Translations under genes and position numbers: made by a program
In this document: positions 52,628 through 58,306 of the stretch, one piece after another
How the letters are laid out: the number at the start of each line of letters is the position of its first letter
How positions within the stretch are numbered: the first letter of the stretch is position 1
Source: an uncultured Granulosicoccaceae bacterium
GTDB lineage: Bacteria > Pseudomonadota > Gammaproteobacteria > Granulosicoccales > Granulosicoccaceae
Assembly (NCBI GenBank): GCA_938035125.1
Contig: CALHNS010000009.1
Location: 1-64,000, forward strand
Direction of reading: 5' to 3'
DNA: 64,000 nucleotides
Notes under the pieces: generated by a model
Database searches by the model: none
What the model saw: the letters and a program-made list of their open reading frames with translations, nothing else
Told to the model about the DNA's origin: nothing

Positions 52628-52921
52628 TTATATGAACGAGCTGACTTGGCAGATCCGGGACAGTTTCTGGATAGATTCGGGCAAATTCTGATGATTCAGC
52701 GTGCACTTAAGCTCTGAAGCCCGTTCTTGCCATGAAAGCAGCAGTGCCAGAGCCGCACTGTTGGCATGGGTAACACCTGAAAAATCAACCACCAACGAGC
52801 CATTGGGTAAAATTTGCCCATTAATTTGATCGAGCAATTGGGGAGCTGTTGCAAAATCTACAACACCAGAGACGCGGCAAACATCCCCTTCAACGTTAAT
52901 TTCTGACCGGCTGGTGTCCAT
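52628..52921 (-). CDS. mlaB: STAS-domain protein MlaB
   Basis: STAS-like SLVVDFSGVTHANSAALALLLSW; operon position. Confidence 0.88.
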   Translation of the reverse strand: MDTSRSEINVEGDVCRVSGVVDFATAPQLLDQINGQILPNGSLVVDFSGVTHANSAALALLLSWQERASELKCTLNHQNLPESIQKLSRICQVSSFI

Positions 52922-52930
52922 AAATACGTT

Positions 52931-53542
52931 CTAGCGGCTGTTACGTTTACGCAGAAACGCTAATAGGCCATCAATACCCTTGGCATTGATTTCGTCGGTA
53001 AATTTCTGCCGAAAATTACTCACCAAGCTTAGGCCCGCCACTTCGATGTCATAAATCTTCCAGCCTTCTTTGTCACGCAGTTTGTAAATCACAGGAACAT
53101 CTGAACCGCCGTTTTGTTTGAAAGCGGTTCGTACAATGGCTCGATCATCTCGGCTTTCAGGTCGGTACGGCTCAAATTCAATAGCTTCACCACTGTATTG
53201 CGTCATGGCAGATGTGTATGTATTTAGCAGCAACGTTTTAAATTGTAAGACCAAATCTTTCTGCTGATCTTTATCGGCGTTGCGCCAGTTCTTACCAATT
53301 GATAAACGCGTCATGGTGACAAAGTCGATGTGCGGCACAATCAATTCTTCGGCTTTTGCATCAACCAATGATTTATCGGCGCGCACCTCATCAATGTTAT
53401 CGGCCAAAAACGATAACATTTCGGTTATTGCGCTTTGCACTAACTGCTGCGCTGGGTGTTCATCTTGAGCATACACAGCATTAGAGAACAGCAACAACAT
53501 CGCAGCGATTGCGGCTCGTAATGATTTATTGATTAACGGCAT
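52931..53542 (-). CDS. mlaC: Periplasmic phospholipid-binding protein MlaC
   Basis: Signal peptide; Tol-Tol-Ttg2-like IDFVTMTRLSIGKNWRNADKDQQ; start at MPLINKSLRAA. Confidence 0.93.
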   Translation of the reverse strand: MPLINKSLRAAIAAMLLLFSNAVYAQDEHPAQQLVQSAITEMLSFLADNIDEVRADKSLVDAKAEELIVPHIDFVTMTRLSIGKNWRNADKDQQKDLVLQFKTLLLNTYTSAMTQYSGEAIEFEPYRPESRDDRAIVRTAFKQNGGSDVPVIYKLRDKEGWKIYDIEVAGLSLVSNFRQKFTDEINAKGIDGLLAFLRKRNSR

Positions 53543-53579: not shown

Positions 53580-54029
53580 CTATTGATCCACCAACACACG
53601 ACCAATAAGCCGTTCAAGCACTAACGCTGATTGCGTTATTTCAAATTCACCGCCATCGGTTAAGTATTCAATGTCCCCACCTGGGTCCAATCCGATGTAC
53701 TGCTCGCCTAAAAGCCCTGCTGTGTAGATACTAGCGATCGTATCCAAAGGGAACTCGGCATAATCTTTATCGATATTCAGAGTAACTCGGGCTCTGAAGG
53801 TTTCAGGGTCATATTCAATTTTTGAGACCTGCCCCACGCGAACACCGCTAGCCGATACCGGCGCTCGCGGTTTCAAGCCGCCGATGTTCTCAAAATACGC
53901 GGTTACTTTGTATCCATCGGTACCCGTCAAACTGGCCAAGTTACTGACCTTCATGGCTAAAATGAACATCGCCGCCAAAAACAGCAACATAAAAAAGCCA
54001 ACGGTTAATTCAATAGTTCGAGAATTCAT
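53580..54029 (-). CDS. mlaD: MCE-domain protein MlaD
   Basis: N-terminal TM, MCE core YFENIGGLKPRAPVSASGVRVGQV. Confidence 0.95.
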   Translation of the reverse strand: MNSRTIELTVGFFMLLFLAAMFILAMKVSNLASLTGTDGYKVTAYFENIGGLKPRAPVSASGVRVGQVSKIEYDPETFRARVTLNIDKDYAEFPLDTIASIYTAGLLGEQYIGLDPGGDIEYLTDGGEFEITQSALVLERLIGRVLVDQ

Positions 54030-54042
54030 CTTTTATAACGAC

Positions 54043-54822
54043 CTATACCGAAAACATAACGGCGGTAAGTAGAAAATCCAACCCCAAGACGGCAAGTGAA
54101 GATTTAACCACCGTCCCAGTGGTGGCTGATGCCACGCCTTCAGGTGTCGGCACACAATCAGCGCCTTGAAAAATAGCGATCCAGTTGACCACTAAACCAA
54201 ATACCACAGCCTTAATTAATCCGTTCAACACATCGGCTTTAAAACTGACAGCACTTTGCATTTGCGACCAATAGGCTCCGGCATCAACACCGAGTAATTC
54301 AACGCCAACCAAATGCCCACCTAACACACCCACAGCACTGAACATGGCGGCCAATAAAGGCAAAGCAATAAAGCCTGCCAAAAGTCTAGGGGCGAAAATG
54401 CGACGGTAAGGATCGATGGCCATCATTTCCAAACCCGACAATTGCTCTGTTGATTTCATGAGCCCGATTTCTGCCGTCATTGCAGAACCTGCACGACCTG
54501 CAAATAAAAGCCCAGTAACCACTGGCCCTAGTTCGCGCACCAAAGTGAAGGCCACGACCACGCCTAAAGATTCTTCAGCACCGAACCTGACTAAGGTGTT
54601 GTACCCCTGTAATGCCAACACCATGCCGACAAACAATCCAGACACTAAAATTATGGATAGGGTTTTGACGCCACTGGCGAATAACTGTTGATTGAGTAAA
54701 GAAAATTTTCGTATGGGCTCGCCAATGGCCAAGACGGTTTGAATCAAATGCAGCAACGCGCGCCCAAGGGTGGCCACAGCGTTTAGTGTTCCAGCACCCA
54801 GCGATTGAATGAGATCAAGCAT
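54043..54822 (-). CDS. mlaE: ABC permease MlaE
   Basis: FTLVRELGPVVTGLLFAGRAGSAMTAEIGLMKSTEQ. Confidence 0.96.
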   Translation of the reverse strand: MLDLIQSLGAGTLNAVATLGRALLHLIQTVLAIGEPIRKFSLLNQQLFASGVKTLSIILVSGLFVGMVLALQGYNTLVRFGAEESLGVVVAFTLVRELGPVVTGLLFAGRAGSAMTAEIGLMKSTEQLSGLEMMAIDPYRRIFAPRLLAGFIALPLLAAMFSAVGVLGGHLVGVELLGVDAGAYWSQMQSAVSFKADVLNGLIKAVVFGLVVNWIAIFQGADCVPTPEGVASATTGTVVKSSLAVLGLDFLLTAVMFSV

Positions 54823-55711
54823 CGAGGCGCGCCTCAGTGGTAGCTAAATCTTGGCCGTAGTCTGGTGCTTTTAACTGGAACGGCACAGGGCCATCCGAAC
54901 GGCCATTTAAAAATTGCTGCACCCAATCTGATGAACTATTTTGAAGTTGCTCTGGCGTGCCCGCTTCAACCACTTTGCCTTCAGAAATGACGACCACATG
55001 ATGCGAGATGGATAACGCTTCTGCTAAATCGTGCGAGACGATGATGGACGTCAACCCTAAAGCACTATTCACCGTGCTGATTAATTCCAACAACACTCCT
55101 AAAGATATGGGATCTTGCCCGGTGAAGGGTTCGTCGTACATGATCATCATTGGATCCATAACCAAGGCCCGAGCTAAGGCTGCTCGCCTTGCCATACCGC
55201 CAGAGAGTTCTGCGGGCATTAAGTCTCTTGCACCCCGTAGCCCCACAGCGTGCAAACGCATTAACACCAGTTTATGAATGAGTGATTCAGGAAGTTCGGT
55301 GTGTTCTCGCAACGGAAACGCCACGTTGTCGAAAACGTTTAGGTCGGTTAATAAGGCGCCAGATTGGAACAACATTCCCATGCGTTTACGCAAGGCATAC
55401 AGATCGCGTCGCGACAGCTTTGCCACCTGCTGCCCATCAACTTCGATGCCGCCAGCGCTGGGTTTCAACTGACCACCAATGAGCTTCAATAAGGTGGTTT
55501 TCCCCGTGCCACTGGGGCCCAGAATGGTGGTGATACCACCTTGCGGAATATCCGCATTTAATCCACTAAAGATGGTTTTGGACCCACGGCTGAAATGTAA
55601 GTCGCGAATTTTGACCAGCGTGGTGTTTTGGTCTGACAAACTAAAGGACTCTATCCGACGTTTATGGATTGTAAACTGAAGGTTTATTGTAGCAGTCCAA
55701 TCCCCTATCAA
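54815..55711 (-). CDS. mlaF: ABC ATPase MlaF
   Basis: GPSGTGKTTLLKLIGGQL, LSGGMARRAALARAL; start uncertain (TTG at 55639 would give a more typical length). Confidence 0.94.
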   Translation of the reverse strand: MIGDWTATINLQFTIHKRRIESFSLSDQNTTLVKIRDLHFSRGSKTIFSGLNADIPQGGITTILGPSGTGKTTLLKLIGGQLKPSAGGIEVDGQQVAKLSRRDLYALRKRMGMLFQSGALLTDLNVFDNVAFPLREHTELPESLIHKLVLMRLHAVGLRGARDLMPAELSGGMARRAALARALVMDPMMIMYDEPFTGQDPISLGVLLELISTVNSALGLTSIIVSHDLAEALSISHHVVVISEGKVVEAGTPEQLQNSSSDWVQQFLNGRSDGPVPFQLKAPDYGQDLATTEARLDA

Positions 55712-55820: not shown

Positions 55821-56702
55821 ATGATGCCGCGCACTCTACTTTTGTTGTTCATGCTGCTGATTTCGACTGCTTGCGCCACTAATCCTTCTAATGGCCCCAT
55901 TTACGATCCTTTAGAACCAGTCAACCGAAAGGTGTATGCCTTCAACAACACGATTGATCGAGCAATACTAAAGCCCGTTGCTCAAGGATATTTGAAAGTA
56001 ACCCCTCGCCCTATCCAAACCGGGGTTAGAAATTTTTTCAGTAATCTGGGCGACATTACCGTTTTGGCGAACGATTTGTTGCAATTGAAATTTAAACAAG
56101 CAGCCAGCGATGCCAGTCGCCTATTAGTGAACAGCACCATCGGGTTGGGTGGGTTGATCGACTGGGGCACCCCGATGGGATTACCAAAACATAATGAATC
56201 GTTTGGGCAAACGTTCGGAGTTTGGGGGTTCGGCGAAGGCCCCTATGTCGTGCTACCACTTTTTGGGCCTAATAATTTTCGATCTACGGCAGGGTTGGTT
56301 ACCGATTCGACATTAATCAGCAGCCCCACTCGCTCTCGAATCGCCAGCAGCGATGCCCAATTCGGTTTAACCATTCTGGACGTGGTTAGCCTTCGTGCCC
56401 AATTTCTGGACGCCAGCCGCTTACTCGATCAAGTGGCTCTTGACCCTTACCAAACCACACGCGATTTCTGGATTCAACGCCACCGAAACGCAACGTGGGA
56501 TGGCAAGAAGGATGTTCGCCCTCGAACCGCTAAACCAGCATCGCGAGGCGATGACGAGCTCGATGAGCTCGATGAGCTGGATGAGCTCGATGAGCTCGAT
56601 GAACTCGATGAACTCGATGAACTCGATGAACTCGATGAACTCGATGAACTCGATGAACTCGATGAACTCGATGAACTCGATGAACTCGATGAGTTGGACT
56701 GA
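55821..56702 (+). CDS. mlaA: Outer-membrane lipoprotein MlaA (VacJ) with (DEL)16 C-terminal tail
   Basis: Lipobox LLISTAC, YDPLEPVNRKVYAFNNTID, RNFFSNLGDITVLANDLLQ. Confidence 0.95.
   Translation: MMPRTLLLLFMLLISTACATNPSNGPIYDPLEPVNRKVYAFNNTIDRAILKPVAQGYLKVTPRPIQTGVRNFFSNLGDITVLANDLLQLKFKQAASDASRLLVNSTIGLGGLIDWGTPMGLPKHNESFGQTFGVWGFGEGPYVVLPLFGPNNFRSTAGLVTDSTLISSPTRSRIASSDAQFGLTILDVVSLRAQFLDASRLLDQVALDPYQTTRDFWIQRHRNATWDGKKDVRPRTAKPASRGDDELDELDELDELDELDELDELDELDELDELDELDELDELDELDELDELD
56553..56696 (+). repeat. 16 tandem 9-bp units (consensus GATGAACTC), in frame in mlaA
   Basis: Units 6-15 (56598-56687) are ten identical GATGAACTC copies; flanking units carry only synonymous changes (GAC, GAG, CTG, TTG). 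Confidence 0.98.
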
Positions 56703-56741
56703 ACCCACTGTGTTCGTTCTAAGCCGTGTAGAGTCTACGCT

Positions 56742-57725
56742 GTGAATACAGAGCCTCTTACCGACCCATCCCAGTGGACAGAACTTGCCTTAGATGTTTT
56801 ACGCATCGAGGCGCAAGCGGTCCAATCATTGGAATCTCGATTGGGCGCAGAGTTTGTTGAAGCCTGTCGCCTACTGCTGGCAACCAAGGGCCGAGTTGTG
56901 GTTTGCGGCGTGGGAAAATCAGGGCACATCGGCCATAAAATCGCGGCCACTTTGGCAAGCACGGGCACCCCGTCTTTTTTCCTACATGCCGCCGAAGCGA
57001 TGCACGGTGATTTGGGCATGCTGCGCTCAGGCGATGTGGTCATAGCGATCTCCCAATCGGGCTCTTCTGGCGAACTGCTGGCTCTACTGCCTGGGCTTAA
57101 ACATTTAGGCTGCCCTCTCATTAGTATGAGCGGCAATCCAAATTCGCCTTTGGTTGAAGCGGCAACCGTTGCTTTGGATGTTAGCGTTGAGCGTGAAGCC
57201 TGCCCATTAGGGCTTGCCCCCACCGCCAGCACAACCGCAACGCTTGCTCTTGGCGATGCCCTAGCCATTGCCTTATTGGGTGCACGCGGCTTTGATAAAC
57301 AAGATTTTGCTCGATCTCATCCTGGCGGGCGATTGGGCAGGCGTTTACTCGTGCGAGTAAGTAAAGTCATGGCCAGTGGCGTAAATTTACCCACTGTGGT
57401 CCCTGGTGAAAAACTCACTCAAGCCTTACTAGAAATGAGTGCTAAGGGCTTAGGCATGGTGGCTGTGTGCGAACAAAACAAACTGCTAGGAGTTTTTACC
57501 GACGGTGATTTACGACGTGCGATCGATCGAGGTGCCGATGTTCAAACCGCTGTCGTTAACGATGTGATGACGACCGATCCTGCGACTACCACCAGTAATA
57601 CCCTTGCGTTCGATGCCGTAAATGCCATGCAAGAACGAAAAATCACCTCGTTACCGGTTGTCGATGATGAACAATTGGTGGGTGTGGTTACCATGCATCA
57701 ACTGCTTCAATCTGGGGTGGTGTAG
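56742..57725 (+). CDS. kdsD: D-arabinose-5-phosphate isomerase (SIS + two CBS), GTG start
   Basis: VVCGVGKSGHIGHKIAATLASTGTPSFFLHAAEAMHGDLG; CBS pair. Confidence 0.95.
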   Translation: MNTEPLTDPSQWTELALDVLRIEAQAVQSLESRLGAEFVEACRLLLATKGRVVVCGVGKSGHIGHKIAATLASTGTPSFFLHAAEAMHGDLGMLRSGDVVIAISQSGSSGELLALLPGLKHLGCPLISMSGNPNSPLVEAATVALDVSVEREACPLGLAPTASTTATLALGDALAIALLGARGFDKQDFARSHPGGRLGRRLLVRVSKVMASGVNLPTVVPGEKLTQALLEMSAKGLGMVAVCEQNKLLGVFTDGDLRRAIDRGADVQTAVVNDVMTTDPATTTSNTLAFDAVNAMQERKITSLPVVDDEQLVGVVTMHQLLQSGVV

Positions 57726-58306
57726 TGCGCTGGTTTTATCGCTATTGGCCCGTGATTCCGCTGATTTTGCTGGTGGTGTTTGCACAAAACTGGGTTGAAG
57801 ATGAGCCTGATTCTGTGCAGGTTGAAGAAACCATCAACATGCAACAAACCCAATCAGATTATTACTTAGAAGATTTCACCACTCGCAAATTTGATATGAG
57901 TGGAAATTTGGAATATCGCGTCAGCGGAAAGAATTTGTTGCATTATCCTGACGATGATCGCTCCGAAATCTTAGCCCCTACTGTCATACTACTGCGCGAA
58001 GGCATTCGATGGGATATCACTTCAGCGCGCGGTGAATTGCGCAGAAGCCCCGACACCTTTACGCTGGAAGGTAGCGTACAGCTTGAACGCGCTATCGAAG
58101 GCGAACATGATTTAAGCATTCGCACCGATCAGCTGTCGGTTCGAACCGATACGAATGAAGTGAGCACCGATCTTCCCATTGAAGTTATTGCTGATGGCTG
58201 GCAGATGAGTTCGGTTGGGTTGGAGTCTCGCATCGATGAAGGCAAGTTGATTTTTTTATCCAAAGTTAAAGGTCATTATGATGCTGCAACACCTGATTCT
58301 GAATAA
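57725..58306 (+). CDS. lptC: LPS export protein LptC (GTG start)
   Basis: N-terminal TM, YYLEDFTTRKFDMSGNLEYRVSG; precedes lptA. Confidence 0.92.
   Translation: MRWFYRYWPVIPLILLVVFAQNWVEDEPDSVQVEETINMQQTQSDYYLEDFTTRKFDMSGNLEYRVSGKNLLHYPDDDRSEILAPTVILLREGIRWDITSARGELRRSPDTFTLEGSVQLERAIEGEHDLSIRTDQLSVRTDTNEVSTDLPIEVIADGWQMSSVGLESRIDEGKLIFLSKVKGHYDAATPDSE

Follow-up and report, generated by a model that had tools for sequence, protein, structure and literature searches.

A tandem Asp-Glu-Leu array at the C-terminus of MlaA in the Granulosicoccaceae: a probable multiplication of the MlaC-recruiting peptide

The mla locus and the repeat-bearing tail of MlaA

The stretch of DNA analysed here (the window; 64,000 nucleotides) belongs to a genome that was assigned, through its named relatives and its kinship, to the genus/family Granulosicoccus/Granulosicoccaceae. 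It carries mlaA (vacJ), which encodes the outer membrane lipoprotein of the Mla system, a protein of 293 amino acids (positions 55821–56702, forward strand; Pfam PF04333, E = 9e-73). The MlaA domain match scores 244.5 bits against a Pfam cut-off of 25, and phmmer finds the PDB entries 5nuo, 8i8r and 5nuq (E = 3e-26 to 9e-27). By reading, there is a lipoprotein signal (LLISTACAT; MMPRTLLLLFMLLISTACATNP), with the cysteine following the signal peptide. The MlaA domain (residues 28–223; 55902–56489, forward strand) forms a confidently folded core, with AlphaFold2 pLDDT values mostly above 90, and a linker (56490–56552, forward strand), over which pLDDT falls from 76 to 52, joins it to a repeat array.

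From the translated reading frame, the protein ends in GD(DEL)16D-stop. The array consists of 16 nine-base units, as read from a draft assembly (111 contigs, 92.5% complete), at positions 56553–56696 of the forward strand, and is closed by a terminal Asp codon (GAC) and a TGA stop (56697–56702, forward strand). From the 5′ edge the units run GACGAGCTC, GATGAGCTC, GATGAGCTG, GATGAGCTC and GATGAGCTC, followed by a homogenised core of ten identical GATGAACTC units (56598–56687, forward strand) and a single 3′ edge unit, GATGAGTTG; every difference between units is synonymous. An earlier account made from the letters alone (the sequence-only reading) had described this tail, its identical centre and its synonymous edges exactly, and the ten identical units speak for a core that was homogenised recently. 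Tandem Repeats Finder reports a period of 9, 14.9 copies, 97% matches and a score of 233, and since this is its sole array in the 64 kb window, the repeat is not a chance pattern. Products of the alternative frames, (MNS)n and (IEF)n (open reading frames 56395–56745, forward strand, and 56421–56708, reverse strand), were considered and set aside as by-products; in the relative G021 the GATGAGCTA units give TAG in the +1 frame. AlphaFold2 assigns the tail a pLDDT of 52–63, with helical stretches at residues 250–261 and 271–291, and this low-confidence, part-helical model is weak evidence compatible with a flexible helix that may become ordered upon binding.

The mlaA gene adjoins mlaFEDCB in divergent orientation. 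On the reverse strand lie mlaB (STAS; 52628–52921, PF13466), mlaC (52931–53542, PF05494, E = 2e-47, start at MPLINK), mlaD (53580–54029, PF02470), mlaE (54043–54822, PF02405) and the mlaF open reading frame (54815–55711, PF00005), the true start of which is probably internal. The mlaC product is the periplasmic lipid shuttle and the proposed partner of the tail, with a basic patch at GKNWRNADKDQQK. In relatives, too, mlaA is found near mlaC; in E. coli mlaA lies ~0.87 Mb away from the operon. The window MlaD has 149 amino acids, compared with 183 in E. coli, and may be without most of the C-terminal disordered stretch. Downstream of mlaA, reading of the translations identifies kdsD-lptC-lptA-lptB-rpoN, and mlaA occupies the site before kdsD where E. 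coli has yrbG. There is no kdsC between kdsD and lptC (window positions 56742–58306), nor a KdsC (TIGR01670) match in the whole genome at its 92.5% completeness; KDO synthesis may rely on a different phosphatase, or kdsC may sit in the missing part of the genome.

Relationship to the MlaC-recruiting tail of Escherichia coli

The C-terminal tail of E. coli MlaA is known to recruit MlaC. Contact with MlaC is abolished or strongly reduced when the last nine residues of MlaA are removed, or when the charge of D243/D244 or of D247/E251 is reversed, and D243R/D244R in MlaA is rescued by K84D/R90D in MlaC (PMC10719372). Binding is likewise abolished by L245N and I248N and weakened by I241N, and GFP fused to MlaA residues 227–251 binds MlaC with a KD of 57 μM (PMC10245069). 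By estimate, a tail of 25 residues would span about 88 Å (PMC10719372).

The E. coli mlaA gene product ends in AIQDDLKDIDSE, and phmmer pairs DDELDELD of the window protein with the MlaA tails QDELKDID (5nuo), QDDLKDID (8i8r, E. coli) and QGELDEID (5nuq) in the PDB. The likeness to the tail helix of E. coli and Klebsiella pneumoniae is thus one of the same protein and the same place, with DDLKDID or DELKDID set against DELDELD. The hydrophobic residues are spaced i, i+4, i+7 in E. coli (I241, L245, I248) and i, i+3, i+6 in DEL repeats: only the L245/I248 pair is matched exactly and I241 is unmatched. The E. coli spacing is not known to be general. Where E. coli has one motif of ~11 residues on its 25-residue tail, the Granulosicoccaceae have up to 20 tandem DEL units on tails of up to 126 residues. 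An effect on MlaC docking, one of the outcomes put forward in the sequence-only reading, is likely; the same account had treated the tail as an added stretch, and it is better described as an elaboration of the acidic and hydrophobic C-terminus with which MlaA is ordinarily equipped and which in E. coli is the MlaC-recruiting helix.

MlaA proteins of other Gammaproteobacteria likewise end in short acidic tails. Of these, 56 of 61 are net negative, with a mean of 33% D/E (a few entries being poorly delimited), and several have ends such as DLIKELELLE, EEELDEDLDDL or LLDELDEMD. The motif count in this class panel is 15, against 7.1 ± 2.2 in shuffles, which amounts to a modest enrichment. Small independent expansions of the MlaA tail are also seen, namely RELERELERELQ (L206), ELELELERELE (L215) and, in L211, GWPDDPA-like repeats within a stretch rich in Trp, Asp and Pro.

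The last 74 residues of the window MlaA carry a net charge of −28, and acidity of this degree would suit a polyacidic tail that buffers divalent cations or cationic ligands at the outer membrane, or that contacts a porin. This is highly unlikely: cation binding does not call for a Leu at every third position, spacing of the EF-hand or RTX kind is not apparent by reading, and short-tail paralogs keep the D-x-hydrophobic pattern and are not simple polyacids. In E. coli, OmpC is still recovered in pull-downs with tail variants (PMC10719372), and hence porin contact does not use the tail. Nothing was found in favour of the porin contacts or divalent-cation binding that had been suggested for this protein from its sequence.

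Distribution of the arrays in the genus and family

DEL-type arrays are present in 22 of the 25 mlaA genes of the window's genus, in which the MlaA tails span 26–126 residues. In one further gene (G015) the array contains an N gap, after which the frame is shifted to (RAG)n, and two (G005, G016) encode acidic tails without DEL arrays, for example DEFEDFDDEDDELDDEELDDEDEDEE; because these two genomes do without it, the array itself is dispensable. The family's other genera contribute 34 mlaA genes, of which 17 encode four or more DEL units in tandem, reaching (DEL)20, and most of the remainder end in short motifs (DEIDLLDELE, DDIDELDLLDQLD or PDELDLLDELD). Relatives without an array thus keep an acidic end, mostly of the D-x-hydrophobic type, and several family proteins combine an array, a spacer and a terminal PDELDLLDELD. 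With arrays found throughout the genus and family, the possibility of a single-strain oddity was ruled out. Where a genome has several mlaA genes, four or more DEL units in tandem are seen in 9 of 12 copies that share a contig with mlaC and in 3 of 14 unlinked copies. Many genomes of one genus (g20; L148–L179) carry two or three mlaA paralogs, and many of its unlinked paralogs share a conserved stretch, CxVxDCDKIDY, and end in a short motif. A search of an open-access library found no relevant literature on MlaA/VacJ repeats or Granulosicoccus lipoproteins.

Within the genomes sampled, the repeat is specific to this protein. When (DEL)4 was sought with a degenerate DNA pattern in 27 genomes of the genus, it was restricted to mlaA. 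Two extra contigs with (DEL)4 (G017:C3, G019:C67) terminate in the array, beyond which the sequence continues into a kdsD-like SIS protein; they are therefore the other halves of mlaA. A general tendency of the genus towards (DEL)n was considered and is ruled out by this restriction to mlaA. In a class-wide sample of 369 genomes, (DEL)4 occurs in three members of the genus and in one genome of a different family (G103), where (DEL)5 stands at the MlaA C-terminus (...NLADELDELDELDELDELDNSMS); this is the sole match outside the Granulosicoccaceae. A reversed control pattern, with matches in 3 genomes, is about as frequent in this sample; (DEL)4 is thus of ordinary frequency, and it is its location in MlaA that stands out. 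Among the genus genomes the reversed control, (NTYRAGYAG)4, gives 4–6 matches in G039, G041 and G011 only, which suggests that a different gene there has a 9-bp repeat of its own.

The arrays could in principle be artefacts of assembly or collapsed repeats. The assemblies break or collapse the array in G002, G015, G017 and G019, making copy numbers there uncertain; three contigs of the genus end inside the array and one carries the N gap with its frameshift, for which reason copy numbers from metagenome-assembled genomes (MAGs) are unreliable. An artefactual origin is nevertheless very improbable, as arrays occur in ~40 separate mlaA genes, including that of a single-contig genome of 7.78 Mb (G023), with species-specific units, an intact frame and an intact kdsD downstream. 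MAG contigs (L180, L181, L003, L020) break or have N gaps inside the DEL array, and because of such breaks and gaps the mlaA of public MAGs is probably cut short or frameshifted in many cases.

Turnover of the DNA and selection on the peptide

The majority nine-base unit takes 15 forms across species, all of which code for DEL, and close relatives have been homogenised to different units: the window genome (G000) has ten copies of GATGAACTC, compared with nine of GATGAGCTA in its closest relative (G021). The periods of the arrays in relatives are 9, 18, 27, 45 and 54 bp, all of them 9 bp or its multiples, which upholds the expectation that slippage would change the length in frame. In some species, among them G011, G018 and G041, there are higher-order units of 54 bp, (DELDELDELDRLDALDKA)n, which preserve the three-residue phase; G023 has a related unit. 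When DEL units are counted in the MlaA proteins of relatives (one genome per species), copy number is found to vary among species and is not identical; the array had been called 'actively expanding/contracting' in the sequence-only reading, and this is borne out at the between-species level only.

Selection was examined in 37 array blocks comprising 329 interior units, with changes scored against each array's own majority codons. The synonymous fraction of unit changes was 0.80, compared with 0.26 ± 0.03 expected for random changes (omega ~0.09), and Asp was kept in 326, Glu in 311 and Leu in 316 of the 329 units, figures that are biased towards DEL by the use of DEL units to delimit the blocks. 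Looser delimitation gave a synonymous fraction of 0.49–0.57, still well above 0.26, and here variation was greatest at the middle residue of the triplet (A, R, Q, K), giving a constraint that reads D-x-hydrophobic. Because the units differ between species and the changes are mostly synonymous, the DNA has been turned over and rehomogenised whilst the peptide was held. On the evidence of these unit comparisons, it is the peptide that is under selection and not the DNA that encodes it, and the array is a family-wide trait selected at the protein level. A function of the 9-mer at the DNA or RNA level was ruled out, given the many majority units between species and yet a constant peptide.

These results bear on whether the array is a tolerated microsatellite, in a disordered tail that needs only acidity and some hydrophobic residues and that slippage inflates with functionless extra copies. 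The wide range of tail lengths between species, the rehomogenisation of close species with different units and the two genus members without an array would all be expected under such a model. It is nonetheless unlikely, since omega is low and Asp almost invariant, almost every genus in the family has arrays, the 54-bp units hold the three-residue phase, and a general proneness to slippage would hardly be expected to confine (DEL)4 to a single gene in 27 genomes.

The arrays resemble the intragenic VNTRs of bacteria in having a unit that is a multiple of three, so that length changes without frameshift, and a homogenised core with diverged edges; they differ in their location in a periplasmic lipid-transport lipoprotein and in their strong synonymous divergence with a conserved peptide, the variation being known between species. 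With phase-variable contingency loci they share slippage-prone tandem repeats, but they do not form an ON/OFF switch, for the unit is 9 bp and C-terminal and the frame is kept in the arrays read, except in the one with an assembly gap. Compared with the E. coli tail, the arrays of the Granulosicoccaceae show fast copy-number turnover.

A probable multiplied MlaC-recruiting peptide

The surface that the E. coli tail contacts was followed in MlaC at 27 loci of the family (three of 30 were misaligned and left out). The residue called K84 in PMC10719372 is Lys 83 by count on NC_000913, and its equivalent is basic (K/R) in 26 of 27 proteins; that of R90 is basic in 18 and Gln in 9, the window's included, and an additional Lys is present at E. 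coli position 80 (Q80) in 25. The window MlaC has R at the K83 equivalent and Q, with a flanking K, at the R90 equivalent. In this alignment the basic patch is largely kept in the MlaC of the family.

The shared site, the alignment with the E. coli bait, the selection at the peptide level and the MlaC patch together suggest that the (DEL)n array is an MlaC-recruiting peptide multiplied in tandem, its length drifting by in-frame repeat turnover whilst the peptide is selected, and we give this a probability of roughly 0.7. The family-wide presence of the array, its confinement to mlaA, the single-motif tails of paralogs and the greater frequency of arrays in mlaC-linked copies also speak for it. 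Points that weigh against it are the hydrophobic spacing, which leaves I241 unmatched, the Gln at the R90 equivalent in nine MlaC proteins, the two genus members that lack an array, the lower synonymous fraction under looser delimitation and the modest motif enrichment over shuffles. Each DELDELD stretch would act as a bait in the manner of D243-D244-L245-K246-D247-I248-D249 in E. coli, and the whole tail would be an extended, flexible polyanion on which numerous docking registers overlap. A longer tail would reach further into the periplasm and more registers would raise the rate or avidity of MlaC capture, possibly offsetting charge screening in salty habitats. Slippage, or recombination from one unit to another, would shift the copy number in 9-bp steps and in steps of the higher-order units of 18–54 bp; all of these would leave the frame intact, with selection retaining the D-x-hydrophobic triplets.

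A variant of this proposal, overlapping with it in likelihood, holds that reach matters and valency does not, the array serving as a spacer of which only the last units bind MlaC. The proteins in which array and spacer precede a distinct terminal PDELDLLDELD leave room for this, and at 3.5 Å per residue (an estimate reckoned as in PMC10719372) the tail could extend >200 Å. It is possible but doubtful, in that a spacer would not need the Asp and Leu conserved in every unit, and Leu-rich acidic triplets would make an unusual spacer. To be held just as tentatively is an extension of the multiplied-bait interpretation, in which the array might be a multivalent, length-tunable line that captures MlaC across much of the periplasm, with slippage at the 9-bp repeat adjusting how fast, or in which direction, phospholipids are returned between the two membranes.

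Significance

Understanding of how MlaA catches MlaC, and of the direction of transport, rests largely on one weakly binding E. coli peptide (57 μM). The Granulosicoccaceae provide a natural dose series that extends from a single motif up to twenty units in tandem, in many cases with two or three paralogs per genome, and that lets affinity, valency and reach be separated. Here a docking peptide known from a single site appears to have become an evolvable array; in this family of mostly uncultured bacteria, a docking peptide would be evolving by tandem duplication within a core housekeeping system.
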